IMG/VR virus record: IMGVR_UViG_3300008952_000077
Span: 1-50,455 of that record
DNA length: 50,455 bases
Strand: one strand, 5' to 3'
Source: a virus
Position 1 is the stretch's first letter. Every line of letters begins with the position of its first letter. The position numbers and the translations under genes are program-made. A model generated the notes under the pieces. It saw only the letters and a list, made by a program, of their open reading frames with translations. It was not told where the DNA came from and did no database searches. Positions 3,370 through 49,481 of the stretch are shown here, piece by piece.

Positions 3370-3571
3370 TGAGTTCCTCCAGTGGATATACATCTCTTCT
3401 TTTAAGCTTCCACGCGTGGCCGTTAGCATAAACTTGATAAACATGGTGACTCATTCTGCTCAAGTAAACACCAACAGTTGGTCTTTCGGTCCTTCTCAAT
3501 CTCATTCCTTTATCGGTTTCACACCACAGTTCCACGTCTTGGGGGATGTGAATCAGATCTCCTTGTTGCAT
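3356..3571 (-). CDS. hypothetical 71-residue protein downstream of groEL
   Basis: The ATG at 3571 overlaps the groEL stop (TGATG), with GGAGG just upstream, so it is translationally coupled to groEL. The protein is a short beta-rich domain: QGDLIHIPQDVELW, then TVGVYLSRMSHHVYQVYANG and WKLKRRDVYPLEE. It resembles SH3/KOW-like barrels in rhythm. It is not GroES; the GroES-like gene lies at 20544-20816. Function unknown. Confidence 0.55.
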   Translation of the reverse strand: MQQGDLIHIPQDVELWCETDKGMRLRRTERPTVGVYLSRMSHHVYQVYANGHAWKLKRRDVYPLEELNGTS

Positions 3572-5148
3572 CACTTATCCTCCGTTTGAATTATAGCGAA
3601 GCCGGTTGTTATCAACGTGCCAGCACAGCTAGCTGCATTCTGTAAAGCAGTCGTTGTAACTTTCACTGGATCAATAATACCACTGTCAACCATATTTGTC
3701 AAGACATTATTCCTAAAATCCCAGCCCATACCATCATCGGAATCAATAACCAAATTAGTTAATACATCTGGTGAGTCGCCGGCATTGAGCGCCATTTGTT
3801 TAAAAGGTGCTTTACAGGCTTCTATAACTATTAGCTTTCCAATATTTTGATCTTCATGGGAAACAGTTATCTCAACATCCCTGCTTGCTCGGAGCAACGC
3901 TGTGCCGCCGCCGCCTATGATTCCTTTATCTTGTGCTGATCGTACCGCCTCTAGGGCATCCTCGATTCTATGCTTTCTCTCAATCATCTCAACTTCAGTC
4001 GTGCCGCCGACAGAAATAATTGCCACACCAGACGATAGTCTGACGACCCTTGACTGGAGCATCTCGGCTTCCGACATGGACTCTGTATCTTTGACTTGTT
4101 TCTTTAGAGCTTGGATTCTCTCATCAATAGCTTTAAAGTTAGATTTGCCACCCACAACAGTAGTGGTGTACTTTGTACTTTCGATTGCTCTGGCCATTCC
4201 TAAATCAGACAACTTGACGTCTGATAGTTTGGTGCCGCTCTCACGGGTGACAAAAGTGGCACCTACAGATATTGCCAGATCATCTAACAGGTACCTGCGT
4301 TCTTCGCCATAATAGGGTGCCTTAATAGCAGCAATCTTTAAAGTTCCCCTCATAGCATTCATAATCATAGCAGCCAAGGCTTGGCCATCAATATCTTCAG
4401 CGACAATTATCAGGGGGCGACCTTCCCTTGCTACCATTTCTAGTAATGGTAAGATGGGCTCAACTTGTGAAATCTTATAGTCTGTCACGAGTATAAGTGG
4501 TTCCTCATAATTCATAGTTGCGCGGCGTTCATCAGTAACGAAGGCTGCGGCGCAATAGCCTGACTGAACCTTAAATCCTTCTGTAACATCAATAGACGTG
4601 TCAAGAGAACGAGACTCTTCAATTGTTATGGAGCCATCTTCGCCCACCCTATCAATAGCAAGAGTGACAAGATTTCCAATAGCAGTATCGTTGTTGGCTG
4701 AAATTGTAGCAACGTGAGCGATATCTTCCGCGCTAGCGACTGGGGCTGCCATCTCTTCAAGATTGTTTGTAATTTCTCTAACTGTTGCATCTATACCTCT
4801 CTTTAGTTCAATAGGAGAAACGCCGGTAGCAATATACTTTTGCGATTCATTTAAAATTGCTCGCGCAAGTACGGTTGCGGTGGTCGTTCCATCACCAGCA
4901 GTGTTGTTGGTTTCAATTGCAGCTTGCTTAATAATCTGGGAACCTGCGTTTTCAAAAGGATCTTCCAGTGAAACAAAGTGCGCCACAGTTACCCCGTCTT
5001 TCGTGATGAAGGGTGGCCTCCCATTTTCTTGTAGAATTACGTTACGGCCTCGTGGACCAAGTGTTGACGCAACATTATCAGCTAATGTGTTAACGCCTTT
5101 AAGAATTTTTTGTTGCAATGAAGTTTTATTATCAAATGCTCTGCTCAT
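3571..5148 (-). CDS. groEL: phage-encoded chaperonin GroEL (HSP60)
   Basis: The 525-residue chaperonin subunit folds proteins inside a double-ring ATPase. Family motifs are present: TLGPRGRNV near residue 30, KDGVTVA, the ATPase motif AGDGTTTATVLA near residue 88, the apical-domain region around EGFKVQSGY, and GIIGGGGTALL near residue 410. The protein is about 20 residues shorter than bacterial GroEL and lacks the GGM-repeat tail, ending TEDK. It has its own strong promoter (5170-5198). The GroES-like partner is 15 kb away. It probably serves virion protein folding, as in other large phages. Confidence 0.95.
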   Translation of the reverse strand: MSRAFDNKTSLQQKILKGVNTLADNVASTLGPRGRNVILQENGRPPFITKDGVTVAHFVSLEDPFENAGSQIIKQAAIETNNTAGDGTTTATVLARAILNESQKYIATGVSPIELKRGIDATVREITNNLEEMAAPVASAEDIAHVATISANNDTAIGNLVTLAIDRVGEDGSITIEESRSLDTSIDVTEGFKVQSGYCAAAFVTDERRATMNYEEPLILVTDYKISQVEPILPLLEMVAREGRPLIIVAEDIDGQALAAMIMNAMRGTLKIAAIKAPYYGEERRYLLDDLAISVGATFVTRESGTKLSDVKLSDLGMARAIESTKYTTTVVGGKSNFKAIDERIQALKKQVKDTESMSEAEMLQSRVVRLSSGVAIISVGGTTEVEMIERKHRIEDALEAVRSAQDKGIIGGGGTALLRASRDVEITVSHEDQNIGKLIVIEACKAPFKQMALNAGDSPDVLTNLVIDSDDGMGWDFRNNVLTNMVDSGIIDPVKVTTTALQNAASCAGTLITTGFAIIQTEDK

Positions 5149-7681: not shown

Positions 7682-8719
7682 TTACCACTTCCTTGTGTTT
7701 ATGTGGGTGCGGCTCTCGCCCAGACCAGCGGAGGTTTGGCGTACAAATTTAGCTTTGTGCTGTAACTCTTTCAAATTTTGCGCACCGCTATATGAAAAAC
7801 CGCTCCTAATCCCTCTCTCAATATCCTCCAGAATGCCAATCACACTGCCGCGAAAAGGAACTTGAGTAGCAACCCCCTCAAAAGACGAGTAGGCACCTCT
7901 CCAACTCATCTGTGCTTCTTTGGATGCCATACCACGATATGATTTATACTTAAACCCATCGGCGCCTTCAAAAACATTCCCCGGAGATTCTGTTGTACCG
8001 GCTAACAGCGATCCGCACATGACTGCATCTGCGCCGGCGGATAAAGCTTTTACAATATCGCCGGAGTTTCTTATGCCACCATCTGCGACGATAGCCACAT
8101 CGCGATCAGTTTTAGAGCATTCAAAGATAGTTTGGAGGCCCGGCAAGCCATGGCCGGTTTGAACGCGAGTGGAGCATATAGAACCGCCTCCAATATTGCA
8201 CCTTACTGAATCGGCCCCCCAATCTGATAGATCGTTGACCCCTTGCAAGGTCGCGACATTTCCAGCCATGATGTGGAAATCTGCGGTAAGTTTCCTAAGA
8301 TTTTCTAATGCTTCTTTCATCATGATGTGGTGGCCATGGGCCACGTCAACGCACAAAAAATCAACACCAGCGGACAGCAACGCCGTAGCACGTTCCAAAT
8401 AATCTCCGGAAATGCCAATTGCGGCGCCGAGCACCGGTGATATAGAATTTACGCTACATTCATAAGCTCTCACAACCTGAAGTACTTGTTCTTCAATTGT
8501 GTTATAGCGGTGGATGATACCGGCACCACCTATCCCATACATCGACGAAGCCATCTGGCCGCCTGTAATTGTGTCCATCGGTGATGAAAATATAGGCAAC
8601 TTCAACTGAAGGCCGCGGCCGAGATCGGTGCCAATGTTGATTTCTTTCCGTGAGCGTATTTCTGAATATTGTGGCTGCAGTAGGACATCATCGTACGTCA
8701 AAGCTTCTGTCTTATTCAC
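7682..8719 (-). CDS. GMP reductase / IMP dehydrogenase family enzyme without CBS domains
   Basis: The 345-residue TIM-barrel enzyme begins with the family signature [15 protein letters not shown]. It has the catalytic Cys182 in [20 protein letters not shown], the phosphate-site motif [16 protein letters not shown], and [10 protein letters not shown] with a flap (VPFRGSV) closer to GMP reductase than to IMPDH. It lacks the CBS pair usual in IMPDH, and its length matches GMP reductase (about 345). Either activity would adjust the guanine/adenine nucleotide pool during infection. TG after the catalytic Arg also favours GMP reductase. Confidence 0.8.
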
Positions 8720-12723: not shown

Positions 12724-15700
12724 CTAACCAAGCAGTTTAAATGTCTTACCCACAGCATAAGTGGAAAAGCCCCACTGCTCGTCATACTTTAACTTGGCCA
12801 TATAGGGCCTATTGGTGAAAATCTTATCTTTTTCTGGCTTGACGCCCCAACATCTAATCTTCTCTGTCTCGTTGTTGGAGTCAATTACCTCAACAATCCA
12901 ATAATTCTTGCCGTTCTTGGTTTTCTTCGGAACAATCTTGCGTGGAATGAACCAACACACGCACAGATCCGAATCAAATTCAGAAATAGGTGGAATAAAT
13001 TTATCCTTGAGTCTTTGAATAGTTTCAGTGGTGATTACCAGATTCATTGGGAACACTCCAGTCAGTTCTGACTTAAAGTGAATGATTTCTTCTTCCGAGA
13101 AGTCTCCTTCCTTGCTGTAAGCTTCAATATTCTCAGCAAACTTCTTTCTATTTTTTGGTCTATCAACAACTGCTGCAGACCAAAAATGTTTACGACCAGA
13201 GAATCTCTCGTCAACAAGCTTATCCATGGCTCCGGCGCGACAGAGGGCATCCAGCGCCTTCTTGTTCAATTTAGAATATGTTATCTCTTCCCGGAACAAT
13301 AGGTCTTCAATGTTGTTGAAGGGTCGGTGTTCAATTATCTGCTCCAATGCAGAATCTCCAAAACCCTTAATGGAAGTAAGCGGCTGGATCAACGTCGTGT
13401 TGTCTGATGCAATCTCCCACACACGTCCGGATTTATTAACGTCCACCGGTGCAATATTGTATCCGAATGACTTTGCAATATTGATTGCTTTTTCCTTACG
13501 GGTCTCAGGCTCTTTATCCAAGAATGCAGCCATCCATTCGGCCTCATAGTAATTCAGTAACCACGCGCACTGATAGGAGATCACACTATAGGAGACCGCA
13601 TGTGACTTGTTAAAACCATATCCGGAGAAGTATTCAAACTTATCCCACAGTGCTTGCGCTTCGTCGCGAGAAATGTCTTTTGCCACACAGCCCTTAATGA
13701 ATTTGTCATGCAGCCTGCCCTTTACGGAACCTTTGCCTGTTCCCTTCTTGGTTAACACCTTGCGAAGCATGTTACCTTCATCGAGAGTCAATCCCCCAAG
13801 CTTGTGGGCTAACAGGGCGATCTGCTCTTGGAAGATGAGGAATCCAAATGTTTCCTCGGTAATCTCTCGGGCCTCTTCAGAGAGATATCCAATGCGATGC
13901 GGATGATTTTTTGCGTCCACGTAGTCAGCATCCACACCTGCTGATAATGGGCCCGGGCGAAAGATGGATGTAATAGCTGACACATCAATAATATTACGAG
14001 GTTTCACTCTGGTGCAAAATCCTTGTGCGCCAGTCTCAGTGAACTGGAATACACCTGCCCACTTGCCTTTATGAAATATGTTTTCGTATACTTTTTGATC
14101 TTCAAGATCAATTACGTCTGGGTGTAAGTTTTCATTGTAGTAGTCGCGTACTTGGGTAAAGGTAGGCTCCTCAACGTTGTGGTAACGACGAAGTATGTGC
14201 TGAATGCAAACTTCCATCATCTTAAGAGTAGATAAGCCGAGCAAATCGAATTTAATGAACCCCATCGGTTCAAGATGACGTACGTTTTGACCCTCGGCCC
14301 ATGGGGCCTGACGCACACCACCTGAGTTAATCAGGGGCATACTCTTGTCTAGATCTTCTGCAATAACTACCCCGCCTGCATGACGTGAACATGAGCGAAC
14401 TTGGCCAACCAATCCTTCAACGTGTGTTTTTACTTGAGGATACTTGTTTAGATATGCGGTCAGTGTCGGTGAGAATTCCATCACCTCTTCCCAAGTTGGC
14501 ACATATACGCCGGCTTTGATGCCGTGCTTACGCTTGGCCTCGGGTGTTGCTTCGCGGATCATAATAGACGTGACTGTGTTGACCTCTGTAAATTCTATGT
14601 TGTAGAGTTTGGAGATATCTTTAATCAGCGATTTAAGCTGCAGCGTGTTCCAGTTGGAAATTGGCGCAACGCAATCCTCTCCCCACATTTCAACAAGTCT
14701 CTCTTTGAGTGCCATACTGTCGGACACATCGTAGTCAATGTCAGGATAATCGGTTGCATCAGAACGCAAAAATCTTGAGAACAGAAGGCCATGCTTGATT
14801 GGATCAATTTGGGTGATACCCAGTGCATAGGCAACAAGAGAACCTGCGGCTGAGCCGCGGCCCGGGCCGGCGAGCATCATATTATTGGTGACGTCAACAA
14901 TCGCTTTCATGGTAAGGAAATACTTGGAGAAGCCGCGATCATCTATCACATTAAGCTCTCTTCGTAATCTATCCGTGTACTCTTTGTTTGTGTGTAAGGC
15001 ACGGTCTTTCAAGCCCTCTAGGGCAAAATTTACTAAGGCCTGTGTGGCGGTAAATCCGGCCGGCACAACAAACTCAGGAAGACGAACCGTGTTGTCGGGC
15101 AGGAATGATTCAATGCGCCCAAAAGCGATCTTGTGTGTTTCTTCAATACTTTGCAAGACTATATCATCGTTGTATTCAAACCCCTGCTCTGCGGAATATT
15201 GTTTGTAACTCTCCCACATTTGATCGCCATTCTTTGGGTATAGCTCATAACCGATCTCTTCAACACCATCAGGCAATTGAGATTCTTCTTCAGCCCAAGA
15301 TGGCCGGCCTTTACCGAGCCAACCAAGGCGTTTGTAAAGTTCGCGATCTTTCCAAGCATCGGGGCCCGGATAATGACTATCGGCTGTTGATATTAATTTA
15401 ACATCAAACTCGTCGGCTACCTGCATTACATATTGATTTAATTCATGTTGTTCTTTAATGTTGTTCCATTGGATTTCGGCATACCACCGATCACCAAAAA
15501 CATCGACCATGCGTCTAGTGGTTTCGCGCATGGCTGCCAGCACTGCATCGTCGCTATCATCTCTATTCTCCCAATAGTCGCCGGCGTATACGCCGCCAAG
15601 ACAAGCAGAAGAAGCGATAATGCCTTCATTGTATTTCTTGAGAAGCGCATAATCAATACGCGGATAGCGGTAAAAGTTTTCTGGCTGATATGACTCAGAA

Positions 15701-16152
15701 ACTAATTTAAATAGATTGTTTAAGCCCGTCTGGTTCTGTACCAACAATACAAGATGACGTCTGCGGCGCAATATATCTTGGGTTTTCTTGCTGTTGCCTT
15801 CGTCTTCTACGGTGGCGCCCGACTGGGCATCCTTCTTGATACTCTTGGCGCGCTTCTTGTCTGCCATGGCCTGATCATAGGCTTCTCGCCATTCTGCAAT
15901 TGAGGGAGTAAAATACGCCTCGCAACCAAAAATAGGCTTGAAGTTTTTACCTTCGGCTTGCATTTTCTTTGCATGCAAAACCTGATATGCTAGACCATTC
16001 ATGTTTCCATGATCGGTTAAGGCTAGCGCCTCGCAGCCATTTTCGTACGCAAAATTCATATGATCCTGCGGAAATCCAATAGCATCAAAAATAGAACCGG
16101 CAACGCTATGTGCATGCAGTCCCACGAACTTAATCTTTGGTTGTTTATTCAT
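12724..16152 (-). CDS. dnaE: DNA polymerase III alpha subunit (family C, DnaE type)
   Basis: The 1142-residue replicase starts with a PHP domain (LHAHS at 12-16, LTDHG at 45-49). It has the palm sequence GPGRGSAAGS (about 429-438), catalytic acids in PDIDYD (about 470-475) and the third acid in KFDLLGL (about 634-640). The fingers/beta-binding region and a helix-hairpin-helix (LTSIKGFGDSALEQI) lie in the C-terminal third. Length is close to bacterial DnaE (about 1160). It has a promoter inside the upstream gene. A complete family C polymerase is rare in phages, and this phage also encodes a family A polymerase. Confidence 0.93.
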   Translation of the reverse strand: MNKQPKIKFVGLHAHSVAGSIFDAIGFPQDHMNFAYENGCEALALTDHGNMNGLAYQVLHAKKMQAEGKNFKPIFGCEAYFTPSIAEWREAYDQAMADKKRAKSIKKDAQSGATVEDEGNSKKTQDILRRRRHLVLLVQNQTGLNNLFKLVSESYQPENFYRYPRIDYALLKKYNEGIIASSACLGGVYAGDYWENRDDSDDAVLAAMRETTRRMVDVFGDRWYAEIQWNNIKEQHELNQYVMQVADEFDVKLISTADSHYPGPDAWKDRELYKRLGWLGKGRPSWAEEESQLPDGVEEIGYELYPKNGDQMWESYKQYSAEQGFEYNDDIVLQSIEETHKIAFGRIESFLPDNTVRLPEFVVPAGFTATQALVNFALEGLKDRALHTNKEYTDRLRRELNVIDDRGFSKYFLTMKAIVDVTNNMMLAGPGRGSAAGSLVAYALGITQIDPIKHGLLFSRFLRSDATDYPDIDYDVSDSMALKERLVEMWGEDCVAPISNWNTLQLKSLIKDISKLYNIEFTEVNTVTSIMIREATPEAKRKHGIKAGVYVPTWEEVMEFSPTLTAYLNKYPQVKTHVEGLVGQVRSCSRHAGGVVIAEDLDKSMPLINSGGVRQAPWAEGQNVRHLEPMGFIKFDLLGLSTLKMMEVCIQHILRRYHNVEEPTFTQVRDYYNENLHPDVIDLEDQKVYENIFHKGKWAGVFQFTETGAQGFCTRVKPRNIIDVSAITSIFRPGPLSAGVDADYVDAKNHPHRIGYLSEEAREITEETFGFLIFQEQIALLAHKLGGLTLDEGNMLRKVLTKKGTGKGSVKGRLHDKFIKGCVAKDISRDEAQALWDKFEYFSGYGFNKSHAVSYSVISYQCAWLLNYYEAEWMAAFLDKEPETRKEKAINIAKSFGYNIAPVDVNKSGRVWEIASDNTTLIQPLTSIKGFGDSALEQIIEHRPFNNIEDLLFREEITYSKLNKKALDALCRAGAMDKLVDERFSGRKHFWSAAVVDRPKNRKKFAENIEAYSKEGDFSEEEIIHFKSELTGVFPMNLVITTETIQRLKDKFIPPISEFDSDLCVCWFIPRKIVPKKTKNGKNYWIVEVIDSNNETEKIRCWGVKPEKDKIFTNRPYMAKLKYDEQWGFSTYAVGKTFKLLG

Positions 16153-30822: not shown

Positions 30823-31663
30823 GAGTTTTTTGTTGTATTACGTTGGTATGGGCAACGCAAAACCCAAAGTCTGTTTCAAAAGGCGACTCGTAAATTGCAT
30901 AAGAAACATTTTTAAATGCATTCCTAGGTTTATTTTTGAGATGGCCTATAATATTTTTGTGTAAATCTCCGTCCTTTTCCAATTTTTCAGTTGATATACA
31001 GATATAATAACATACATCACGAGAGCTGTCAAGATCAAAATACCAATTTTCTTGAAGAGTTTGTGGGTCAATCCTCCCCAAAGAGCGGATTCTTTGAATG
31101 CCGGGGGCGGCCACTAAATTCCCAATAATTGGTGATGTATGATCAAATAAGTTCTTATAATGTACACAATAATAAATAGTTTTATTTATAGTTTCAAAGT
31201 ATTTTTTAATAGGTACTGAGCCTATAGATTCTTCTAATATTGGGTTACTAAAAATTGTAAAAGAGTTGAATAAGCCGGACCTCGCATATTGCTGTAGAAC
31301 ACTAAAAATAGCACGTTCTTGGAGTTTCGCAGCACCCAACAATAGATCAATATCTGGCTCAATGTAAAAGATGTCGATTTTCTTATCTTTTAGTTGTTGC
31401 AAGATAGTCAACGTTGCGTTAGCAGTTCTCGCTGAACCACACAAGAATACTTGCACACGTTCCTCCATACTGGAAAAGAATTTCTCCAAGTTGGGAGTGC
31501 TTGTTTCGTAATCTTCAAGATTTGCTTGATATTTTATCTTTCGCTTGTATTTTGTATTTCTTTCAACATTATCAGACATAACATAGCAGTTATACTCTTT
31601 GTTGTTGGAAAAGCAATTAACAATATTTTCACCAGCAGTCCCAATACCCAAAAGTGATATCAC
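30800..31663 (-). CDS. divergent FtsZ/tubulin-like protein
   Basis: The GTG start at 31663 overlaps the polymerase stop (GTGA), with AAGGAG upstream. The 287-residue protein opens with a Rossmann-like loop (SLLGIGTAGENIV; FtsZ has GVGGGGxNAV). FLCGSARTANATLTILQQL stands in the place of the tubulin GGGTGTG loop. QERAIFSVLQQYARSGLFNSFTIF and NPILEE then follow FtsZ's order of helices and IVI-x-N. The glycines of the GTP loop are mostly lost, so GTPase activity is doubtful. It is short for FtsZ (about 300-400). Confidence 0.5.
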   Translation of the reverse strand: MISLLGIGTAGENIVNCFSNNKEYNCYVMSDNVERNTKYKRKIKYQANLEDYETSTPNLEKFFSSMEERVQVFLCGSARTANATLTILQQLKDKKIDIFYIEPDIDLLLGAAKLQERAIFSVLQQYARSGLFNSFTIFSNPILEESIGSVPIKKYFETINKTIYYCVHYKNLFDHTSPIIGNLVAAPGIQRIRSLGRIDPQTLQENWYFDLDSSRDVCYYICISTEKLEKDGDLHKNIIGHLKNKPRNAFKNVSYAIYESPFETDFGFCVAHTNVIQQKTLDKLEQE

Positions 31664-32844
31664 AAAATCAACTCCTTAAGATCATAGTAATTTTTTCCAG
31701 CATTGATGTTGCCACGAAATTTGCCGAGCGAATTATTTTCAAAAATATTTTTAATCAAAGGGGCCACACTACGCTCTGAATCATCAAGATCAATAACTAT
31801 TTCGTCATGCACAATATGTGATATAAATGATTTCTTTCCCTCTAGAAACTTATCAATCTCAACAGCGCGTTCCATGACTAAGTCTGCCGTCGTACTCTGT
31901 ATCAAATAGTTAAAGGCTTTTCTGTGTTCTACCGGAACTGCTCTTCCGGTCATGGTGTTAACTTTTCCATCTACATAATAATCGGATAATATTTTATCTC
32001 TGTTATACAGATCGCTTTTTATTGCGTCTGAGTCTGGATTGTATAACCAAGCAAAGAATTTTTCTTTAGCTTCTCCGCGTGATAAAACACCGCCAAACAC
32101 ATTTTTTGCATTCCACTGGTGGATGTCCCAATCGGGCTGCGGCTCATTGCCGAGAGCCAATACTGTTCTTAATTCGGCGCCATTATAATCCAAACTGAGG
32201 AACCAATCATTTTTGGGCTTGATTATTTTACGGTGTGTCTTTTTCATGGTTAAAATTGGCAGAGAATTGCTGAATGTTGTCAAGCGACCAGTCACTGTAC
32301 CAAATAGATTATAATCAACGTGTGAGGGCCCAGACAACAGCCTTTGAAGTTGAAGGCGGTCCCTTGAATTGGTCATTAGCTCTCGGCAGTCTTTGTTGCT
32401 AGTAGTCAAATTGTTAAATTTGATCTTGTGCAGTAGTCTATGTACACTGGCTAGATGCTCATAGTTGCGCGGCTTTTCGTAATTTTCAAAAACATGTTTT
32501 GTAATCTGATTCTTAGTTTCGCAAAAGTTTAACAAAAAGTCTTCAGGCACCAAATCGTAAAAACACAATTCACGTAAATTAATTTTTGCTATTCTAAATG
32601 ACTGAAGGTATGCTTTAAATTTGGCCTGATTCGAGGCCAATTTTGCAGATATATCGGTCGGGCAGACTTCAGCGAGATTCTTGCCGCCAGTCATAATCCA
32701 CGCATATTCCACAGAATTATCAGTGATAGCACCGGAATGGCGCCATGTTTTTGTTAGATTAACCGGCAGATCCTCAAAATATAGTTTACCATTTGTGTAT
32801 ATTCCGACGCACTCTGATTTATCGTCTAGACTTTGAAAGTACAA
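31660..32844 (-). CDS. compact family A DNA polymerase without exonuclease domains
   Basis: The start is TTG 32844, with GGAG 6 nt upstream; the ATG at 32880 overlaps the -10 box of the promoter and would not be transcribed. The 394-residue protein is the polymerase domain of PolI alone. Motif A is SLDYNGAELRTVLAL, the O-helix has RGEAKEKFFAWLYN, an AFNYLIQSTTADLV helix follows, and motif C is ISHIVHDEIVID. All catalytic residues are present. Residues 1-130 are a short, unrecognised N-domain. The matching 5'-3' nuclease is a separate gene (24467-25465). Confidence 0.85.
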   Translation of the reverse strand: MYFQSLDDKSECVGIYTNGKLYFEDLPVNLTKTWRHSGAITDNSVEYAWIMTGGKNLAEVCPTDISAKLASNQAKFKAYLQSFRIAKINLRELCFYDLVPEDFLLNFCETKNQITKHVFENYEKPRNYEHLASVHRLLHKIKFNNLTTSNKDCRELMTNSRDRLQLQRLLSGPSHVDYNLFGTVTGRLTTFSNSLPILTMKKTHRKIIKPKNDWFLSLDYNGAELRTVLALGNEPQPDWDIHQWNAKNVFGGVLSRGEAKEKFFAWLYNPDSDAIKSDLYNRDKILSDYYVDGKVNTMTGRAVPVEHRKAFNYLIQSTTADLVMERAVEIDKFLEGKKSFISHIVHDEIVIDLDDSERSVAPLIKNIFENNSLGKFRGNINAGKNYYDLKELIL

Positions 32845-34060
32845 TTTTTTCTCCGTAACCTTTTTTGTTCCTATTAACATTATAACTCAATGAGCCTCTA
32901 TAGTCAAATGGATGGTTGATTGTAACTTCAAAAACAACGCCGGCACGGGATGGGCCTAGGCGATCATACACCGACAGACAATCGCGAAGGATTGTTTTTT
33001 TCTCGGGTTTGGTAAATTCTTTTGGCTCTTCGCGCATGCGAATTTCAAATAAAAATGCCAACAATTCTCTTTCCGTAAAAATTCTGGTTAATTGATCTTC
33101 AGAATATGACTCAGGCACAACATAACGCGTGCGAATACGACCGTTACATTCTTCAATAATCGGAATTTTTGGTAATTTCACCATGTTATATAATCTAAGC
33201 AGATATTTTCTAAATTTTTCATAATAGATATAATCTGCCCGACTATATCCGATGTTTATGATCCTGTTGGTTTTCTGCAAGTTATATTGTGCGGCGTACT
33301 GTAGCATCTCGCTTGAGCCGATATCTGCCACTATTCTCCATGGTATATTTTTGTCAACCATAAAACCAAACGAGCGGCATGCATTCAGGAAGTATTCCCA
33401 GTGGCCACTTTGAACGAAATGTTTCATTTTTTTGCTGTCGTCAAAATAATCAAGATCGGCAACTTCAATAGCTAACCCGCTAACGTTAATAGGGCAATAT
33501 CTACTCTTTAAAAATGCAGAAAAAGTAAATGGGTGGCGCGACACAGATTGCATTAATAGTGGCCCTAAGTGATTCATAAATTCATGAAAATTTTTAACTT
33601 GAATCTTCTTGTCCCTGAAATGATTTACTATCGCTGTTGAATAATTGTCTTGGTGAGTATTAAAAAGCTCTATTGGACTAACAAAAGATTTATAAACATT
33701 CAAATTGCTAAGATACGGGTGATTCGGATCCAATTGTCCTTGAGCAACTGCCTTTTTAAAAACTTGCTGTAAGTCTTTGAATGCGTCTACAACAAAATTG
33801 ATAGCACTCTGTTCTGGGCCGCCGGCATTATCCCCCGTAGCATCATTGAGCGGTTTTAAGCTTGCTGCGGACTGTTTCTCAAGATATACCGGTACAAACT
33901 GAAAGTTCACGCGGCCGTACAAAAATTTCTCTCCGAAATTAAAGTTGGTTAGATTTTCATATTGTTCAGCATTAATAACTGCATCATAATTATATGCCGC
34001 TCTCTTATAATATGTCAATGCGGATCCGTCGCGGTTTTTAGTAATGTAAATTTCTGCCAT
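32819..34060 (-). CDS. hypothetical phage protein, possibly virion-associated
   Basis: The 413-residue protein has no signal peptide or long hydrophobic segment. It starts with a beta hairpin-like region (MAEIYITKNRDGSALTYYKRAAYN). The centre is Phe/Tyr-rich helices (FHEFMNHLGPLLMQSVSRHPF). The end is basic (NRNKKGYGEKIVLSKSRR). It lies between the 1152-residue tail protein and the polymerase gene, and its 3' end carries the polymerase promoter. Family not recognised; a virion or injection role is possible. Confidence 0.5.
   Translation of the reverse strand: MAEIYITKNRDGSALTYYKRAAYNYDAVINAEQYENLTNFNFGEKFLYGRVNFQFVPVYLEKQSAASLKPLNDATGDNAGGPEQSAINFVVDAFKDLQQVFKKAVAQGQLDPNHPYLSNLNVYKSFVSPIELFNTHQDNYSTAIVNHFRDKKIQVKNFHEFMNHLGPLLMQSVSRHPFTFSAFLKSRYCPINVSGLAIEVADLDYFDDSKKMKHFVQSGHWEYFLNACRSFGFMVDKNIPWRIVADIGSSEMLQYAAQYNLQKTNRIINIGYSRADYIYYEKFRKYLLRLYNMVKLPKIPIIEECNGRIRTRYVVPESYSEDQLTRIFTERELLAFLFEIRMREEPKEFTKPEKKTILRDCLSVYDRLGPSRAGVVFEVTINHPFDYRGSLSYNVNRNKKGYGEKIVLSKSRR
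32879..32907 (-). promoter_or_regulatory. sigma70-type promoter for the family A polymerase
   Basis: TTGACT (32907-32902), 17-bp spacer and TATAAT (32884-32879). It is inside the preceding coding region, and its -10 overlaps an ATG at 32880, which points to TTG 32844 as the true start. Confidence 0.75.
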
Positions 34061-39072: not shown

Positions 39073-41634
39073 TCATGTTCTCCCTGCTATTGCCTTTGCG
39101 GCTCGTTTGGTTTGAATTTTCTGTACAACTCTTCCAAGTTTTTCATCACCGATCCTAACATCAATAACGGCATTCTCGGGCCCACTATTAATATAGGTGT
39201 TACTAGAAGAATTTTGTGCAATATTTGTGTTTGCGGCGGTTGGTGCGGCGGCCCTTGCTGCGGCGGCGGGTATTGCCGCGGCGGTGGTAGCCATCGTTTT
39301 ATTCATTACATCGTTACTGGCAACTTCAGATTGTGCTTTAATTGCTATGCCCACATCCGACATTGCACTACCCAAAGCCAGTGCTTTTGTTCTTGAGACG
39401 TTTTCAATGGCGGCGGCAATTTTTTCGATATTGGCTGCGGCGCCGGGGTCTGTCAAAGCATTAAAGAAGGCAACGGCAGCTTCCACAATCGTCTTAAATA
39501 TATCACCTATATACGAGATTACAGCTTCAAACTTTCTAAACGGGGTCATTAGAGCGTCAAATGCTTTTTCTAACATACCACCAGTAAACATATCAAAGAA
39601 GCTTGGAGAGTTCTTTTCGGCAAAAGCGCCCATAAGACCTTTAACAGCACCAGCAAAAAGCCCAAAAACAACAATTGCCAATTTAACACCGGTTAAAACT
39701 TTAAGTAAAGGGAATAAAATAACTACTCCGAGAACAAAACCTATGCCTTTAAAAATAGGAATGAGTTCTTCACCAATATTAAGGGCGCCATCCATAGAGC
39801 CAGTAAATTCATGAAACTGATCGCTGATAAATTTTATCATATCAAAAAGCGCGGTGAATGGCAAGAATAACCCTTCAAGTATTAAGCCTAAAGCTGATAG
39901 TTTTTCACTTCCTAATTTTATAGAATCCATAAGCATAAGTATGCCACCGACTGCTGCCCCGATGGGCCCACCAAGAGCAAATCCTATCAAAGCTCCACCT
40001 AGCACTTTCATTACTCCTGCATTGTCTGACATAAATGTAAGCAAGCCACGAAATGCATCTATCAATGGTGTTAGTATTGGAATCATTTGAGCAAATACGG
40101 CATTTAGCTGTTCTTGGAATGAAGCAAGGGTTTTGGCTTCTTTTGCAGCTTCTTCAAAGTCCTTGGTTGTTTTCTTTGTCTCATCTGAAACAGAATCCAT
40201 GTTTCCGCTTAAGGTCAAAGCAAGATCACCAATGCTATCAAGACCAAGTGCATCTTTGTAGAAATTCTTCTGATAGTAGGACATGGTATCAAAGGATAGC
40301 CCTGTATCTAAAATAGAGTCTCGTATCATTTCAAATCTAGCAGTTGGATCTGTCTCCATCATAAGATCCATAGCATTAACAAAGTTACCACCAAGTGCAG
40401 CGTTTAACTTACCAGCTTGACGGGCGGCGCCCTCAAAAGTATCAAATTGATTAACTATATTCAGCAACTTGCTCACCGATAGGCCAGTTACCTTGGCTGC
40501 TGCTGCTAAATCCCTAAATGCCTCGTCGCCGTTCTCGCCTAATTTCATCAAAGAATCAGAAGCCTCTCCAAACTGGCCAGCCAAGGCCTCGGGGGCGACT
40601 CCAAGTTCTTGCGCAAAACCGACCATATTGAGCATTTCTGCGCCGGCGGCTTCAGCGCTCATACCCATGCCTTTCGTTAATGTCTGTATGCCTTGCGCCG
40701 TTTGTTGATTAGAAACGCCAAATTTTTCTAACACAGCGGTAGTTTTAATCAAGCTATTCCTAACTTCAGTATCTTGGATAGTTGAAAAATCTGTAAAAGT
40801 GTTGTAAAGTGCACCCATTGCAGCGCCCATATCTGCCGCTGTAGCCGTGAATTTACGGCCTTCCTCGTAAGTAACCGAAAGTGAACGTGCGAACTCCTGA
40901 GAGGCGCCTGTAGACTTCATAAACGCATTCTCTGCGTCACCTAGCTCAACTGCTAATTTGCCCATTGACTCTATTAAACTGATAAGAGCCAAAGCACCCA
41001 TCTTTTTACCAGCGGCTTGAAGACCTGCGCCTAAGCTTTCAGAACCTTGTATTGTTTTTTGAATGCTGTCGGATAATTCACCCTTCATAGTATTTGATAT
41101 ACCCTTCAAAGCCCCTTGGATACCGCTAGCGTCACCGCTAAACAAGCCTTGAGCAATGTCACTGGCATTATTACCAAAATTAGATAAGCGACTGTCTAAT
41201 TCCTCAAGATGGGCAAGATGTTCAGCTTCTTTCTCGGTAATTCCATCTAGAGTTTTAGCTTGTTCTCTGAGGTATGCAATCTCAGCTTGGCGCGCTTCTT
41301 TGACAGCTTTTAGTTTTTCCTCAGTGAGAATTGTTTTTTTATAACCTTGGTCTAGAGCGTCTACTTGTTTATTTAAAAGTATAACAAGATCTTCAGCATC
41401 TTTTTTCTGCGTCTTGAGCAAATCAACTGATTTTTTTAATGAACCTATAGTTTGTTCAAGACGAGCGACTAATTTCTCATTTAAATCGTTTCTTTGTAAA
41501 AGCTTTGTCAGCTGCTGTTCATTAAGAGAGTTTATTTTTTTAGCTAATTCAACTTTAGCACTAAGACTTGAACGAGATTCATTCTCAAGTTCTTGCAGTT
41601 CTTTGGCTAATTTTACTTCTTCTTCTGTGGCCAC
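39073..41634 (-). CDS. tail tape measure protein
   Basis: The 853-residue protein has a long N-terminal coiled coil (1-150), a helical middle, and two hydrophobic patches near 540-580 (GALIGFALGGPIGAAVGGILML) and 640-700 (GFVLGVVILFPLLKVL). The Ala-rich C-terminus (800-840) is followed by a basic end. This layout is that of tape measure proteins that set tail length and enter the host envelope. It has its own late octamer and is preceded by the chaperone-like gene pair. Confidence 0.88.
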   Translation of the reverse strand: MATEEEVKLAKELQELENESRSSLSAKVELAKKINSLNEQQLTKLLQRNDLNEKLVARLEQTIGSLKKSVDLLKTQKKDAEDLVILLNKQVDALDQGYKKTILTEEKLKAVKEARQAEIAYLREQAKTLDGITEKEAEHLAHLEELDSRLSNFGNNASDIAQGLFSGDASGIQGALKGISNTMKGELSDSIQKTIQGSESLGAGLQAAGKKMGALALISLIESMGKLAVELGDAENAFMKSTGASQEFARSLSVTYEEGRKFTATAADMGAAMGALYNTFTDFSTIQDTEVRNSLIKTTAVLEKFGVSNQQTAQGIQTLTKGMGMSAEAAGAEMLNMVGFAQELGVAPEALAGQFGEASDSLMKLGENGDEAFRDLAAAAKVTGLSVSKLLNIVNQFDTFEGAARQAGKLNAALGGNFVNAMDLMMETDPTARFEMIRDSILDTGLSFDTMSYYQKNFYKDALGLDSIGDLALTLSGNMDSVSDETKKTTKDFEEAAKEAKTLASFQEQLNAVFAQMIPILTPLIDAFRGLLTFMSDNAGVMKVLGGALIGFALGGPIGAAVGGILMLMDSIKLGSEKLSALGLILEGLFLPFTALFDMIKFISDQFHEFTGSMDGALNIGEELIPIFKGIGFVLGVVILFPLLKVLTGVKLAIVVFGLFAGAVKGLMGAFAEKNSPSFFDMFTGGMLEKAFDALMTPFRKFEAVISYIGDIFKTIVEAAVAFFNALTDPGAAANIEKIAAAIENVSRTKALALGSAMSDVGIAIKAQSEVASNDVMNKTMATTAAAIPAAAARAAAPTAANTNIAQNSSSNTYINSGPENAVIDVRIGDEKLGRVVQKIQTKRAAKAIAGRT

Positions 41635-41685: not shown

Positions 41686-41940
41686 TTATTTTTGACCTTG
41701 AAACGGCGCAAACTGAGGCGGCATGCTCGGGGCATTATCTGGGGTAAGGGTATGAGTATTGGAGTTAGAGCCGCCTTTGCCTTTAGAGGCATTCTCAATA
41801 GCTTCTTTTTCCATCTCTAATTGTCTAATTAGGCGCTGTGTGAACCATGAGCGTAGACCAATTGGCAAATTATATGCCTCTAAGAAAGACCATCCTCCTG
41901 AATATTTCAGGAAAAAGAATTGTTCATACACGTTCTCCAT
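41686..41940 (-). CDS. small tail-assembly-chaperone-like protein, possible frameshift extension
   Basis: The 84-residue reading from ATG 41940 has no clear ribosome site. It contains YEQFFFLKYSGGWSFLEAYNLPIG and an RLIRQLEMEKEAIENA helix, then a low-complexity tail. Its frame continues upstream, without a stop, across the 7-T run at 41959-41965 in the end of the preceding gene. The product may therefore also be made as an extension of the 284-residue protein, as in phages with gpG/gpGT tail chaperones. Confidence 0.5.
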   Translation of the reverse strand: MENVYEQFFFLKYSGGWSFLEAYNLPIGLRSWFTQRLIRQLEMEKEAIENASKGKGGSNSNTHTLTPDNAPSMPPQFAPFQGQK

Positions 41941-41944
41941 GTAT

Positions 41945-42799
41945 TCATCGGTCAGGCCAAAAAAAGTCCGCACTGAGCGGCACCTCCATGTCCTGATCGT
42001 AATTACACTCGCCACACTCAAAATGTTGAGTCATATCAACATTCGGCGCCGTGAGCTTATACGCCAACCTTAGATGGCGCGAATCAGAAGATGGCATATT
42101 TTCAACAAGGTATCTAATCGCATCAATACTTGAGTCACCGTTAACAGCAACAATTAACGATGCTAATTGGCGAGTAATACCGTGTTCTTGGCGTTGTTTT
42201 TTGTCCGCCTGTGCTCCGGCAGCGAGACGCTTTTCATCCGTCCCTGTCAAAAGCTTAAAAGTTACAATAACATTGGTTTTAGGCAATGTTACATCAAATG
42301 TACTATTTTGGTTATCGGTTACCGACATTGTGTTGTCGTCGTCGCCAGTATAAACCGATGCGTCGTTTAAGTCAAAAGAGTATTCCTGACTTTCGCCACA
42401 TTGCGGGCATGTTACCTTAGTTGTATAGTCATTACCATATCCCGATACACGGGTGGCTACAATAATGGCGTTTCTGTCGCCGATGAACAGCGAGTCAGGA
42501 TCAATTGCCTTGTTTATGATTAGGCTACCAATCACTCTATCGAGGGCAACGCCCTTTTTAAGCAATGTCCGCGATGTAAGCATATCTTCTTCTTTTGCGG
42601 TCATCTGCTTAATTTCAATCGCCGATTCACCATGTAATGGGTGGCCCGGCGGGTAGTATCTACCACCTGAAGGTAATTCCACAAATTCTGTTGGAATTAC
42701 AAATGAGAAACCTCCCACTCCTTCGTTCATAGCTTGAACTGGCGGGGAAGTATCCTGTTGTTGAGCGCCTCCTTGGGAGCGATCTTGATTTCTAGACAA
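41945..42799 (-). CDS. T4 gp26-like baseplate/tail assembly protein
   Basis: The start is TTG 42799, with AGAGG 6 nt upstream. The 284-residue protein has an N-terminal Gln-rich arm, then GGFSFVIPTEFVELPSGGRYYP. EIKQMTAKEEDMLTSRTLLKKG follows, the hallmark of the T4 baseplate (gp26-type) family. CPQCGE and CGEC-like pairs form zinc sites. The last four codons overlap the possible slippery run. Such proteins act with the tape measure in tail-tube assembly. Confidence 0.7.
   Translation of the reverse strand: MSRNQDRSQGGAQQQDTSPPVQAMNEGVGGFSFVIPTEFVELPSGGRYYPPGHPLHGESAIEIKQMTAKEEDMLTSRTLLKKGVALDRVIGSLIINKAIDPDSLFIGDRNAIIVATRVSGYGNDYTTKVTCPQCGESQEYSFDLNDASVYTGDDDNTMSVTDNQNSTFDVTLPKTNVIVTFKLLTGTDEKRLAAGAQADKKQRQEHGITRQLASLIVAVNGDSSIDAIRYLVENMPSSDSRHLRLAYKLTAPNVDMTQHFECGECNYDQDMEVPLSADFFWPDR
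41959..41965 (-). other. possible programmed frameshift site (TTTTTTT)
   Basis: The minus strand reads GAC TTT TTT TGG CCT GAC CGA TGA in the frame of the 284-residue protein. A +1 or -2 slip at the T run joins it to the downstream frame (GGC CTG ACC GAT GAA). No stem-loop was sought downstream. The site is four codons before the stop, where tail-chaperone frameshift sites usually are. Confidence 0.4.
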
Positions 42800-42828: not shown

Positions 42829-43413
42829 TCATGTGTTAAAGAAGCTTGTTCCACCACCTGCTACTGCGACCGATGGGTTGGCGGTTTCAACGCGGGCCCA
42901 GTCGTACATAAGCTCAACTGTGGTGGTGGTAAGCTCATCGTCACCATATGAAAGTTGTCCAAGTTGAACGTCTTTAACAAATGCATTCCAAAGTGTCCAA
43001 GTTTCAAGTGGTTTACCGTCAGAATCAATTTGAGAAATGATAACGGTACCGAGGGCGCCGGCGGCCTTCGCCTTGGAAATAGAACCAAGAGAAGTTGCGT
43101 TAGCGGGGGGCTGATAGCCGGATAATCTTAAAATATCGGAGAACGTTGCTGTGACGTCGGGATTAACAGGGTCGACCATTTCAACGGAAATTGTATTCCA
43201 AGTGACAGCGCCCGGATAGTAAAACTTATGGTTTAGATAAGCATGCTCTACATTTTCAATAGTAAAGCTGGGCTTTGTTGTAGTTTTGGCGTACCATGCA
43301 ATGGCACCACCTTGCTCAGCTTGAATTCCTTGGAATTCTATTGTAAATCTGAAATTTCTTTTTGGATCTTTGAGGGTTACGTCCTCTCCGAAGTTTGTTG
43401 ACCAAAATGGCAT
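42829..43413 (-). CDS. tail tube protein (gp19-like)
   Basis: The 194-residue protein has the phage tube layout: KDPKRNFRFTIEFQGI at the start, AWYAKTTTKPSFTIENVEHAYLNH, YYPGAVTWNTISVEMVDP and LQLSYGDDE-like elements, and a strand-rich end with VELMYDWARVE. Length is close to T4 gp19 (163). It lies directly downstream of the sheath gene and carries its own late octamer at 43440-43447. Confidence 0.88.
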   Translation of the reverse strand: MPFWSTNFGEDVTLKDPKRNFRFTIEFQGIQAEQGGAIAWYAKTTTKPSFTIENVEHAYLNHKFYYPGAVTWNTISVEMVDPVNPDVTATFSDILRLSGYQPPANATSLGSISKAKAAGALGTVIISQIDSDGKPLETWTLWNAFVKDVQLGQLSYGDDELTTTTVELMYDWARVETANPSVAVAGGGTSFFNT

Positions 43414-43473: not shown

Positions 43474-46392
43474 TTAATCATCAAATGATGCACCAGTGTT
43501 GAGGATTACGAAGTCAATAGCGATGAATTCGATGGCTCGTGCTGGTTTAATCATAATCTTAGCGTACATAATGTTTTGATCAACAAGATCAGGCGTCGTA
43601 GTAGACTCATCAAGGACTAGGCGATAGTCAGTGATACCGTATCTTGTCTTAACATTTGCAAGGAATGGTTCTACAAGTCCCTTGAAGCGGTTCCAAGTTG
43701 CCTGCACATTTTGCTCAAAGAGAATTTGAGTGGACAGGATGGAGATCTGCTTCTTGAGGTAGATAACCAAGCGGCGGACATTGATTCTATCAAGCGCTGA
43801 TTGACGCTCTTGGAGAGTCTTTTGTCCGAACAACACGATACCAGAGCTTGGGAAAGAAGCAATTGGGTTAATGTTGTACTCGTAAAGGGTGTCGCGATCT
43901 TTAGAGGTTAATCTTTCGCTGACATTCACAATCGGGATTCCAGCGGCACCATCGGTAAGTCCGCCGCGGTTAAAGCCAGCGGGAGCAAACCAGACATCAG
44001 TCTTGGCTTCGGAACTTCCGAGAACACCAAGAATTGCAACGGTTGGTGGTATCCAGACAAGCTGTCCCGTTCCTTCGTCGCGGGTCTGTACCCATGGATA
44101 GAAGGTTGTTCCGTACGAGGAATCAAGCCTTCTGTCTCTAAGGCCAAGAGAAGCTTGGTCCGGATTCGTGCCGATTCTGCTAGAAATATCCGAGTAATAT
44201 TGTTCGTGAGCAGGGATGTAGACGTTTGGAAGGTCAATCAAGGCCATCGCGTCAGCGCGCTCTTCGCAGATATCAATCATGCGCTCTGTAAGGGTCTCTT
44301 GAGTGAGACCGGGCGCTGTTAATAGGTTCATATCCGTCATCTCAGGATCTGAAACTGTATCAATCGCACGCCTATATGTGTGGAAGATATAGTTGTTGTC
44401 CTCTGTGGAAGTTGATGACATGAACGCATTGTATGTCGGATCTGGTCTGGTGATATCCCAGCCGTCGGCGCCACCCCAGAATGGAGCAGTAAATCGGTTA
44501 TAGCCTGCATCGAGAATATCGGTGTAAGATGCGCTAGTGACAGAAGCCTCTGCTTTACGTGAACCGGAGTTATAGTAATATGCAGAGCCGGAAGTCTCAA
44601 TATCATCTAATGAGAAGATATAGGACCATGCGTTGATACCTTTAGTAAGATATGCGCCAGTTGTCGGATCGTCAGGGAAGTTTGCATATGGCAATCTGTG
44701 GAAATCTGCGCAACTCGCATCGGGCCTTGTAGAAGACGGACTACGAGTGGAACTGAATCCAAAGTACGCATTAGTGGGGTCTCTCAGTCCACCATCGGAA
44801 GCCGAAACTCTGATGGAGGAACTTGGGAACAACAGTGAACCACTTAAGCAATTGATGGTGGCGCCGGCATCGGTACCAACCGATCCAGACAATAATGGCT
44901 GGCGGGCTTCAGTTTCTTCTTTACCATTTCTGTTACCGTGAATAAACTGGTTGGCATTCAGAACAAACGAAGTTTCTAATGTTGACATACCAATTTCTGA
45001 ACCCGTAATGCCAGTAACGGTCTTCGGCCTAGGAGGACCATAATAGCCAAACGGAACAAGCGATGAATCGGTTGCGCCGGCTTCAACATCTCCGTCAAGT
45101 TCAACATAAAAGTACTTAGACTTGTTTGGATAATCACCATAAGTTTTGAGCATCTTGTTGGTTGAATCCCATGCTACATATTGAGTACCGATCTTGCGGC
45201 CGATATAGCTAGGAGATTTTGGATCTAAACTACAGTTGTCAAATCTTTCTAGAACAACAACCTTGTTGTCTGTGTCTTTAATGTCCCGAACAACAACCGA
45301 GAAGGTGCCATAAGGATTTTGAGTGGTAGAAGATTGACGAATTTTTTCAATTGATACCTTGCAGTTCTTATGTAGCCATTCGCCATGGCCGCGGCCAACT
45401 AAGCGGAACAGCTTTTGAGCGTTTTGCGGTTCATAAGAGCCGGCGGCGCCCTGATCTTGGCCGATAAACCAACCAGCAACTGCTTCGCGCGAGGCTTGTG
45501 CCTTCATGTTAGCCGGCTGGTAGTCATTATCAAGCTCGCCGCCAAAGCCCATTGGAAGCAGAACGCCGAATGTCGTAGCCAAACTATGTAAGCCTTTTCT
45601 GCGCAGTGCTTGCTCGTAAGATTCGCCGAGCCAGTAGTCTTTTCTTGCCGAAGCAGGATAAAATGTAGTTGTGTTGTTACTAGCAACTTGAGGATTAGTG
45701 TTAAATCTCTTTCTAATAAATGTTTCTTGTGTGTCATCGAAGCCAAACGTAACTGTTTCTTGTGGCATGTTGCCGGAAACAATTAGCTGGTATAACCCAT
45801 TTGAGTCTGATTGGATAGCGATACCGGTACCTTCGGAACCAAGATCTCCGGCATACCCAGAGGGATTCACGATATTACCACTTAAAAAGATTTTACCTTT
45901 GTTTAGATAAAATGTCGCTGCATGTGTGCCTTCGCCAATATTGGCCGAGGATCCTGAACGGAATATAAATAACCCGAATGCACCACCATTGGTGGAGGCA
46001 GCCGTAGTTGGTTTTCCTGAAGTGGCCCAGCCGGCTGCAGCATTACCACCCACAGATTTACCAGTACTGGTTTGTTGACCCAAAAGACGAATGAATGTCA
46101 GAGGGGCAACATTCGAACGAAGGAAAGCTTTAGCTGCATAGGTTCCATACATAGGTGACTGATAGTTACCATCACGGTAGACATCGCCACCTCCTGAACC
46201 GGCTACGGTATCTCCGAATTCTGTTACGAAATCTGAATATGAACTAACTTTGACCGGAGTCATCGCGAGGCCTCTACGTGAGCGCCCAATTACGACCGGC
46301 CCAATGGCATCTGCACTCTTGGGGATAAAAGAGTTATCAATCTCGTTGATAAAGACTCCCGGAGATACAAATTTAAAACTTTTCACTGACAT
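43474..46392 (-). CDS. tail sheath protein
   Basis: The 972-residue contractile sheath subunit begins FKFVSPGVFINEIDNSFIP. This is the family start, followed by GPVVIGRSRRGLAMTPVKV. The C-terminal third has VNVSERLTSKDRDTLYEYNINPIASFPSSG, WGQKTLQ-like FGQKTLQERQSALDRINVRRLVIYLKK, and FVILNTGASFDD at the end. It is much longer than T4 gp18 (659), with several large insertion domains. Upstream late octamer at 46444 and downstream hairpin at 43450. Confidence 0.92.
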   Translation of the reverse strand: MSVKSFKFVSPGVFINEIDNSFIPKSADAIGPVVIGRSRRGLAMTPVKVSSYSDFVTEFGDTVAGSGGGDVYRDGNYQSPMYGTYAAKAFLRSNVAPLTFIRLLGQQTSTGKSVGGNAAAGWATSGKPTTAASTNGGAFGLFIFRSGSSANIGEGTHAATFYLNKGKIFLSGNIVNPSGYAGDLGSEGTGIAIQSDSNGLYQLIVSGNMPQETVTFGFDDTQETFIRKRFNTNPQVASNNTTTFYPASARKDYWLGESYEQALRRKGLHSLATTFGVLLPMGFGGELDNDYQPANMKAQASREAVAGWFIGQDQGAAGSYEPQNAQKLFRLVGRGHGEWLHKNCKVSIEKIRQSSTTQNPYGTFSVVVRDIKDTDNKVVVLERFDNCSLDPKSPSYIGRKIGTQYVAWDSTNKMLKTYGDYPNKSKYFYVELDGDVEAGATDSSLVPFGYYGPPRPKTVTGITGSEIGMSTLETSFVLNANQFIHGNRNGKEETEARQPLLSGSVGTDAGATINCLSGSLLFPSSSIRVSASDGGLRDPTNAYFGFSSTRSPSSTRPDASCADFHRLPYANFPDDPTTGAYLTKGINAWSYIFSLDDIETSGSAYYYNSGSRKAEASVTSASYTDILDAGYNRFTAPFWGGADGWDITRPDPTYNAFMSSTSTEDNNYIFHTYRRAIDTVSDPEMTDMNLLTAPGLTQETLTERMIDICEERADAMALIDLPNVYIPAHEQYYSDISSRIGTNPDQASLGLRDRRLDSSYGTTFYPWVQTRDEGTGQLVWIPPTVAILGVLGSSEAKTDVWFAPAGFNRGGLTDGAAGIPIVNVSERLTSKDRDTLYEYNINPIASFPSSGIVLFGQKTLQERQSALDRINVRRLVIYLKKQISILSTQILFEQNVQATWNRFKGLVEPFLANVKTRYGITDYRLVLDESTTTPDLVDQNIMYAKIMIKPARAIEFIAIDFVILNTGASFDD

Positions 46393-49196: not shown

Positions 49197-49481
49197 TTAC
49201 GAAGTCTTCTTGGTTGTCTTGGTTTTTGTGGTTTTTTGGGTCGTGGTCGCTTTTTTAACAGTGGGCTTTTTAGCTGCGGCCTTGGGTGTTGCTTTGGCCT
49301 TTAATGTTGGGGTGGGCTCTTTTTTCTCGACCTTTGGAGCCTCAACTTTCGGAGTCTCAACTTTGGGCGCCTCAACAGTCGCTGCGGCGATGGGAGCTGT
49401 TTTTACTCCCTCTTCCGCTAAAAGAGCGGCGCGGCGAGCAGCATCTCTTCTTTTAAACATTAATCTTCTACGTGGGTTCAT
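49197..49481 (-). CDS. basic low-complexity Lys/Pro/Ala-rich protein
   Basis: The 94-residue protein starts with Arg/Lys-rich helix (MNPRRRLMFKRRDAARRAALL). EAPKVE/TPKVE repeats (about 37-52) follow, and then a histone-H1-like Lys/Ala/Pro/Thr tail (AKATPKAAAKKPTVKKATT). It has no hydrophobic segment. It is expressed from the late octamer at 49512-49519. It may bind DNA or bridge virion proteins. Low-complexity sequence precludes a family call. Confidence 0.6.
   Translation of the reverse strand: MNPRRRLMFKRRDAARRAALLAEEGVKTAPIAAATVEAPKVETPKVEAPKVEKKEPTPTLKAKATPKAAAKKPTVKKATTTQKTTKTKTTKKTS

Follow-up and report, generated by a model that had tools for sequence, protein, structure and literature searches.

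Frameshifting that yields the tail assembly chaperones G and G-T is widely conserved in long-tailed phages "except T4" (PMC5009743), and in lambda gpG and gpGT derive from overlapping frames between the tube and tape measure genes, joined by a frameshift close to where the first frame ends. A 2010 review described T4 gp51 as essential and as having no known function (PMC3004832). On 70S ribosomes, an upstream hairpin stimulates +1 shifting and damps −1 shifting (PMC6321510). The locus described here lies in a 50,455-nt stretch of viral DNA (IMG/VR record IMGVR_UViG_3300008952_000077), referred to as the window. It is very likely that ribosomes skip one base forward near the end of its gp26-like gene, giving a short and a long protein; this was inferred from sequence alone. 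The features at the junction of the two frames are the following.

41945..42799, minus strand: gp26-like gene (T4_baseplate, PF12322), proposed short product G; 284 aa, TTG start as listed
41686..41961, minus strand: ORF2, in the +1 frame from the slip site, proposed T part of G-T; 91 codons plus stop
41957..41965, minus strand: slip site TTT_TTT_TGG; P-site TTT at 41962-41960, +1 codon TTT at 41961-41959
41945..41947, minus strand: gp26 stop codon TGA
41938..41940, minus strand: ATG inside ORF2, a rival start, not conserved

On the minus strand the gp26-like frame ends GCG GAC TTT TTT TGG CCT GAC CGA TGA, and the +1 frame reads TTT GGC CTG ACC GAT GAA TAC ATG GAG and remains open to a stop at 41688-41686; it is open already 83 nt 5′ of the gp26-like stop. 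An earlier note on this stretch had proposed a +1/−2 shift at a run of seven T, four codons before the stop, into a second frame without a ribosome site of its own. The run was found at minus-strand positions 41965-41959, four sense codons lie between the last TTT and TGA, and no Shine-Dalgarno sequence is present 5′ of the second frame, so that these three claims held. One correction applies, as the second frame of the window does have an ATG (41940-41938), but this codon is not conserved.

Conservation was assessed in a clade set of the window and 80 IMG/VR loci (the best 80 of 218 viral-contig matches, 63-100% identical), with a non-redundant subset of 48 loci at <90% nucleotide identity. 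TTT_TGG in the gp26 frame together with a continuing +1 frame was found in all 81 sequences, and the protein of the +1 frame is conserved as FGL[TS]..Y[MI]..[IV]YEQFF[FY]LKY and onward. The T run is T7 in 71 members and TTTCTTTT in 10. Across the 48 loci, the +1 codons right after the slip encode Gly (48), Leu (48), Thr (47), and Tyr (48), while the gp26 frame is variable at the place of the +1 Leu (Pro 33, Ser 10, Thr 3, and Phe 2). Since the +1 residues are constant where the gp26 frame varies, the +1 protein was deduced to be under selection already 5′ of any start codon. At the position of the ORF2 ATG the 81 sequences have ATG (71), ATA (7), or ATT (3), and even a 4-nt Shine-Dalgarno match upstream of this position is missing in 47 of the 48 non-redundant loci. 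Among 264 windows along the gp26-like gene, synonymous constraint peaks at the last codons (48 clade members). This constraint and the presence of TTT_TGG with an open +1 frame in 81/81 sequences place the pattern beyond chance. The site, the two frames, their conservation, and the lack of start signals are all shown directly.

The direction of the shift was deduced from the 10 clade members with TTC_TTT_TGG, in which a +1 shift keeps tRNA-Phe on UUU while a −2 shift puts it on UCU. The "+1/−2" ambiguity of the earlier note was therefore resolved to +1, by these 10 of 81 members and by distant relatives without a long T run. Conservation of the T run had been named there as a check, and TTT_TGG proved to be present in 81/81 clade members and the full T7 in 71/81; the idea was to be refuted by a ribosome site conserved ahead of the second gene, a condition that did not hold (47/48 loci without Shine-Dalgarno). 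The central claim, that a tail-chaperone pair is made by a programmed shift at the T run, is supported as the best reading, with no protein evidence.

Two further elements lie 5′ of the slip site.

41968..41980, minus strand: hairpin CCGC-TCAGT-GCGG, ending 5 nt before the P-site codon
41982..41987, minus strand: GGAGGT, Shine-Dalgarno-like, 19 nt before the P-site codon

The CCGC/GCGG stem pairs perfectly in 44 of the 48 non-redundant clade loci, and its 5-nt loop varies. Codons within the stem were compared across these loci with the rest of the gene: CCG was used in 45/48 (0.11 elsewhere), Leu was encoded as CTN in 48/48 (0.62), and GCG was used in 47/48 (0.135). Synonymous constraint picks out the freely variable positions of the stem. 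No covariation was seen for the stem in the clade because it is nearly invariant. The GAG codon of GGAGGT is fixed in 48/48 (background 0.34), and GAGGT occurs at a constant distance in 48/48 loci, compared to 24/960 control positions. The minimum of the 5′ folding energy falls at the place of the hairpin, and in synonymous shuffles the 5′ energy lay in the lowest 5% for 15 of 29 window-clade sequences, a strong signal. An Rfam search gave no match. The conservation of the hairpin is thus shown, while its driving of the shift is inferred.

The arrangement was then followed in wider relatives. Of 57 phage records with gp26 relatives, 12 were examined, and the second frame was at +1 across the gp26 stop in 8 (Mel-JY01 and RM378, both with TTT_TTT_TGG, immuto, SP-15, LIS04, a Streptococcus phage, BRock, and a 484-kb metagenome phage) and at −1 in 3 (PA5oct, Vibrio 2.275, and Atu_ph07). 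The slip motif of immuto is CTT_TGG. The second frame of Atu_ph07 has an ATG overlapping the gp26 stop, and that of LR756511 has its own TAATG start. Three further scans brought the total to at least 249 sequences (80 loci kept from the last scan); a gp26 frame was present in 247, of which 15 with <150 nt after the stop were left out, and the remaining 232 loci were thinned at 85% identity to 137 diverse relatives. A slip motif within the last 25 codons, with a matching open second frame, was found in 131 of the 137, at +1 in 111 and at −1 in 20. The +1 motifs were [CT]TT_TGG in 84 relatives (exactly TTT_TTT_TGG_CCT in 75) and TTT_Y in 27, mostly TTT_CGN; the TTT_Y motif is loose, and chance matches are possible among them. 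Four loci (L208, L237, L120, and L123) carry TTTTTTTGG, which corresponds to +1. The −1 motif was T_TTT_TT[CT] in all 20; L087 and L121, reclassified as "other" once the motifs had been counted, are not part of the −1 statistics, which rest on the remaining 18. The uniform P-site codon of the motif classes is not evidence because the classes were assigned by that motif. No recognized motif was present in six relatives (L085, L095, L119, L153, L156, and L162), five of which have a long frame across the gp26 stop, while L119 has a frame starting at TAATG; a few relatives seem to be start-codon users. In a strict test, requiring a frame open 110 nt past the stop with no ATG, GTG, or TTG from −30 to +45, start-less crossing frames were found at 47/137 gp26 ends versus 9/267 other gene ends in the same loci. 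The statistics given here take no account of shared ancestry.

L153, L156, and L162 were also observed to share AAT_CCC_AGT near the gp26 end, followed by a long +1 frame, and a shift on CCC_A, like that on proline codons in Listeria phages, is possible for these three. In public records, the second chaperone frame has no gene in LIS04 and a short internal ORF in immuto and SP-15 (L083, L085, and L086). A nucleotide search of phage records gave no match, a tblastn search with ORF2 gave none either, and a search of genome contigs found no relative.

The side on which structure lies was found to differ with the direction of the shift. Perfect 5′ stems were present at 14/55 and 11/27 sites of the other +1 groups (0.8 and 0.5 expected, respectively, from in-gene controls) and at 0/18 −1 sites (0.4 expected). 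These other +1 groups carry different hairpins at the same place, and most of their sites are without a perfect stem. Just 5′ of the site, every +1 group showed a lowered folding energy and the −1 sites did not, while the 3′ folding energy was lowered only at −1 sites (−10.4 versus −6.2, p 0.005). Synonymous shuffles placed the 5′ energy in the lowest 5% for 9/55 and 3/27 sequences of the other +1 groups, a modest signal, and for 1/18 of the −1 group. Enriched 3′ structure at +1 sites was considered and rejected, the 3′ energy of the window clade being weaker than that of the control.

The identity of the products was deduced from the proteins and their neighbors, which are the following.

42829..43413, minus strand: tail tube gene (gp19-like), upstream neighbor; PF06841 E 3.7e-7, PHROG 4542 E 5.9e-26
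39073..41634, minus strand: 853-aa gene at the tape measure position, downstream neighbor

The gene order is thus tube, gp26, ORF2, and tape measure position. The 853-aa gene has no significant family match in Pfam or PHROG; a tape measure is annotated at the corresponding position in immuto, LIS04, and SP-15. The gp26-like protein matched PF12322 above the cut-off (E 5.5e-17; 62.6 bits versus 24.5) and PHROG 150 (E 2.3e-19). Its model has a pLDDT of 90.7, and the ORF2 model consists of three helices (pLDDT 80). The first Foldseek PDB match for the gp26-like model was the HK97 tail assembly chaperone 2ob9 (E 0.68), and the top three of 729 chains in VIA-align were 3fgx (Z 6.2), 2ob9 (5.3), and 3klu (YqbN, 5.1), followed by a next value of 3.9; all three matches cover residues 13-130 of the gp26-like protein. 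YqbN is a member of the XkdN-like chaperones. The fold alone proves nothing because the Z values are within the range that the tool calls common. A sequence search of the PDB found no meaningful relatives, and the fold search for ORF2 was uninformative. Taken as one reading with the +1 shift, the pair very likely represents the G and G-T tail assembly chaperones, these functions being inferred from position, layout, and fold.

ORF2 of the window matched DUF6760 (PF20546) only below the cut-off (E 0.041; 14.4 bits versus 27), and matches at E ≤ 0.1 were obtained for 21 of 44 ORF2s (best 2.2e-4), representing a distant likeness. DUF6760 genes adjoin T4_baseplate genes in bacterial contractile injection systems. 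This adjacency and the likeness suggest that such systems may hold the same chaperone pair; no DUF6760-type relatives from bacterial injection systems were found among the plasmids and genome contigs searched.

Other genes were noted in the window. The tail sheath gene (43474-46392, minus strand), upstream of the tube gene, is long (972 aa), with only its C-terminal part matching Pfam sheath domains. Also on the minus strand are genes for a GroEL-type chaperonin (3571-5148; Cpn60_TCP1 E 3.5e-60, PHROG 5725 E 4e-140) and an IMP dehydrogenase/GMP reductase-like protein (7682-8719; PF00478 E 1.4e-103), a DNA polymerase III alpha-type gene and a family A polymerase match (12724-16152 and 31660-32880), the latter covering only part of the profile, and a repetitive open frame of 94 aa rich in Lys, Ala, Pro, and Thr (49197-49481) with no PHROG match. 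DnaB, RecA, and a B12-dependent ribonucleotide reductase are also encoded, and no tRNA genes were found in the window.

The following mechanism is proposed. Most ribosomes would finish the gp26-like protein (G). Others, with the P-site tRNA-Phe paired to UUU and the A-site codon UGG still to be read, would slip forward one base, from UUU to UUU, and read GGC next; these ribosomes would add about 90 residues to give G-T. The CCGC/GCGG hairpin is predicted to refold directly behind the ribosome and push it forward, perhaps helped by the preceding GGAGG. By analogy with lambda, the tape measure protein would be coated by G, and tube protein would be brought in through the T part. The occurrence and frequency of the shift and the binding partners of the products are inferred, with no peptide or reporter evidence.

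The corresponding T4 proteins were compared. Gene 26 of T4 is followed by gene 25, and no second frame is annotated between them. PF12322 covers residues 1-206 of the 208 of gp26 and 1-201 of the 249 of gp51. The C-terminal extension of gp51, represented by the last 58 columns of eight gp51s, aligned with the ORF2s of 17 members of the −1 group at a probability of 86% (P 4.7e-6). The match to all 127 ORF2s had a probability of 83% (P 9e-6), while against the TGG or the TTTC group alone only P 0.011 was reached; controls (gp25, gp26, gp27, and the N-terminal part of gp51) gave P 0.07 to 0.9. In a tree of 72 rows, T4-type gp26s and gp51s form one group (100/98), as duplication would give, although the branches are long. 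It therefore seems that T4 uses two genes to obtain the products that its relatives get from a single frameshifted gene, an inference again from sequence alone.

Three rival explanations were considered. The first, which survives best but is judged unlikely, is that the frameshift is real and that its products are baseplate hub parts, as annotated, rather than tape measure chaperones. The family names say baseplate hub, and gp26 was assigned to the hub by genetic work cited in a T4 review (PMC3004832). Against this are the position between tube and tape measure, the G/G-T layout, and the modest fold match to the HK97 chaperone. In that review, gp26 and gp51 are also given as chaperones of hub assembly, gp51 is missing from the particle, and gp29 counts among the hub proteins; since the tape measure gp29 is itself classed in this way, a defect in a chaperone could be mistaken for one in the hub. 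The second, termination at the gp26 TGA followed by reinitiation at the ATG 5 nt on, with ORF2 made as a separate small protein, is very unlikely. An ATG 5 nt past the stop is present in the window and in 71/81 clade members, so that some reinitiation could occur, and LR756511 (L087) and Atu_ph07 have the start codons described above. However, the ORF2 ATG is replaced by ATA or ATT in 10/81 members. Five of these have no ATG, GTG, or TTG in the first 40 codons read (L045 being cut after 25 codons), and in the other five the sole such codon is a TTG at position 17 or 35. On rare occasions translation can begin at ATT or ATA. Reinitiation was ruled out as the main route to ORF2 by this loss of the ATG, the missing Shine-Dalgarno (47/48), and the conserved residues preceding the ATG. 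The third is that a Mu-like −2 shift of the ribosome, or slippage during transcription of the T run, leads into the same frame; it is permitted by T7 in 71/81 members but is all but excluded, since the run is broken by TTTCTTTTGG in 10/81 members, where −2 re-pairing is not possible and the homopolymer required for slippage is missing, since distant relatives with CTT_TGG, TTC_TTT_CGT, and CTG_TTT_CGC keep the arrangement without a long T run, and since the hairpin sits 5′, the side tied to +1 in published work (PMC6321510).

With the +1 shift in a G/G-T pair retained as the preferred reading, a bolder one was also drawn, toward which we lean only slightly: PF12322 would be a chaperone family in which the direction of the shift flipped together with the stimulator and in which T4 duplicated the gene. 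T4 gp26 would then be G and gp51 an in-frame G-T, and the "hub assembly" proteins would be tape measure chaperones. Its scope would be the tail assembly chaperones of large contractile-tailed phages, with a 5′ hairpin for +1 and 3′ structure for −1. The genetic work placing gp26 in the hub speaks against gp26 as a pure chaperone. No link of T4 gp26/gp51 or PF12322 to chaperone frameshifting was found in the open-access literature searched, which took in relevant sections of PMC10885494, PMC11821841, PMC11948020, and PMC9024508; preprints and most subscription papers lay outside the search. If the reading is true, gp26 and gp51 fall under the chaperone rule to which T4 was the exception. One gene family would also offer a comparison of +1 with −1 shifting, and natural +1 sites with an upstream hairpin. 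For annotation, several of these phages miss the second protein or show a short internal ORF instead.

Compared to lambda, the window shares the overlapping frames between tube and tape measure genes and the shift near the end of the first (PMC5009743), whereas lambda shifts −1 and the window phage +1, and the G of the window belongs to the T4_baseplate family, with a zinc-ribbon-like stretch, and by sequence not to the lambda family. Shifts to +1 in phage tail genes are described for HSTV-2 and for the Listeria phages PSA, A118, and A500 (PMC5009743), but the PSA-type shift is on CCC in a tail shaft gene, and for HSTV-2 the +1 direction was given merely as very likely. The relevant sections of PMC5009743 do not describe a +1 site that is shared across a family and has a 5′ hairpin. 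prfB (RF2) resembles the site proposed here in that a slowly read A-site codon goes with a one-base forward slip of the P-site codon, and CTT_TGG of immuto slips onto TTT as CTT_TGA of prfB does (PMC6321510). The A-site codon is the sense codon TGG in the window and a stop in prfB. The Shine-Dalgarno of prfB lies a few nucleotides before the P-site codon, while GGAGG in the window is 19 nt from it, with the hairpin between; a prfB-type site was rejected because GGAGGT ends 19 nt before the P-site codon in 48/48 loci. The constructs of PMC6321510 also have a hairpin juxtaposed 5′ of the site that stimulates +1 shifting, but these were test constructs with CUUUGA and A6G sites, whereas the element described here has been kept in natural phage genes. 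For T4, gp26 and gp51 both belong to PF12322 and the gp51 extension aligns with ORF2, the difference being two separate genes and no frameshift. Chaperone frameshifting is thus already a known kind, of which the +1 version is a variant, and the T4 reading is the novel part.
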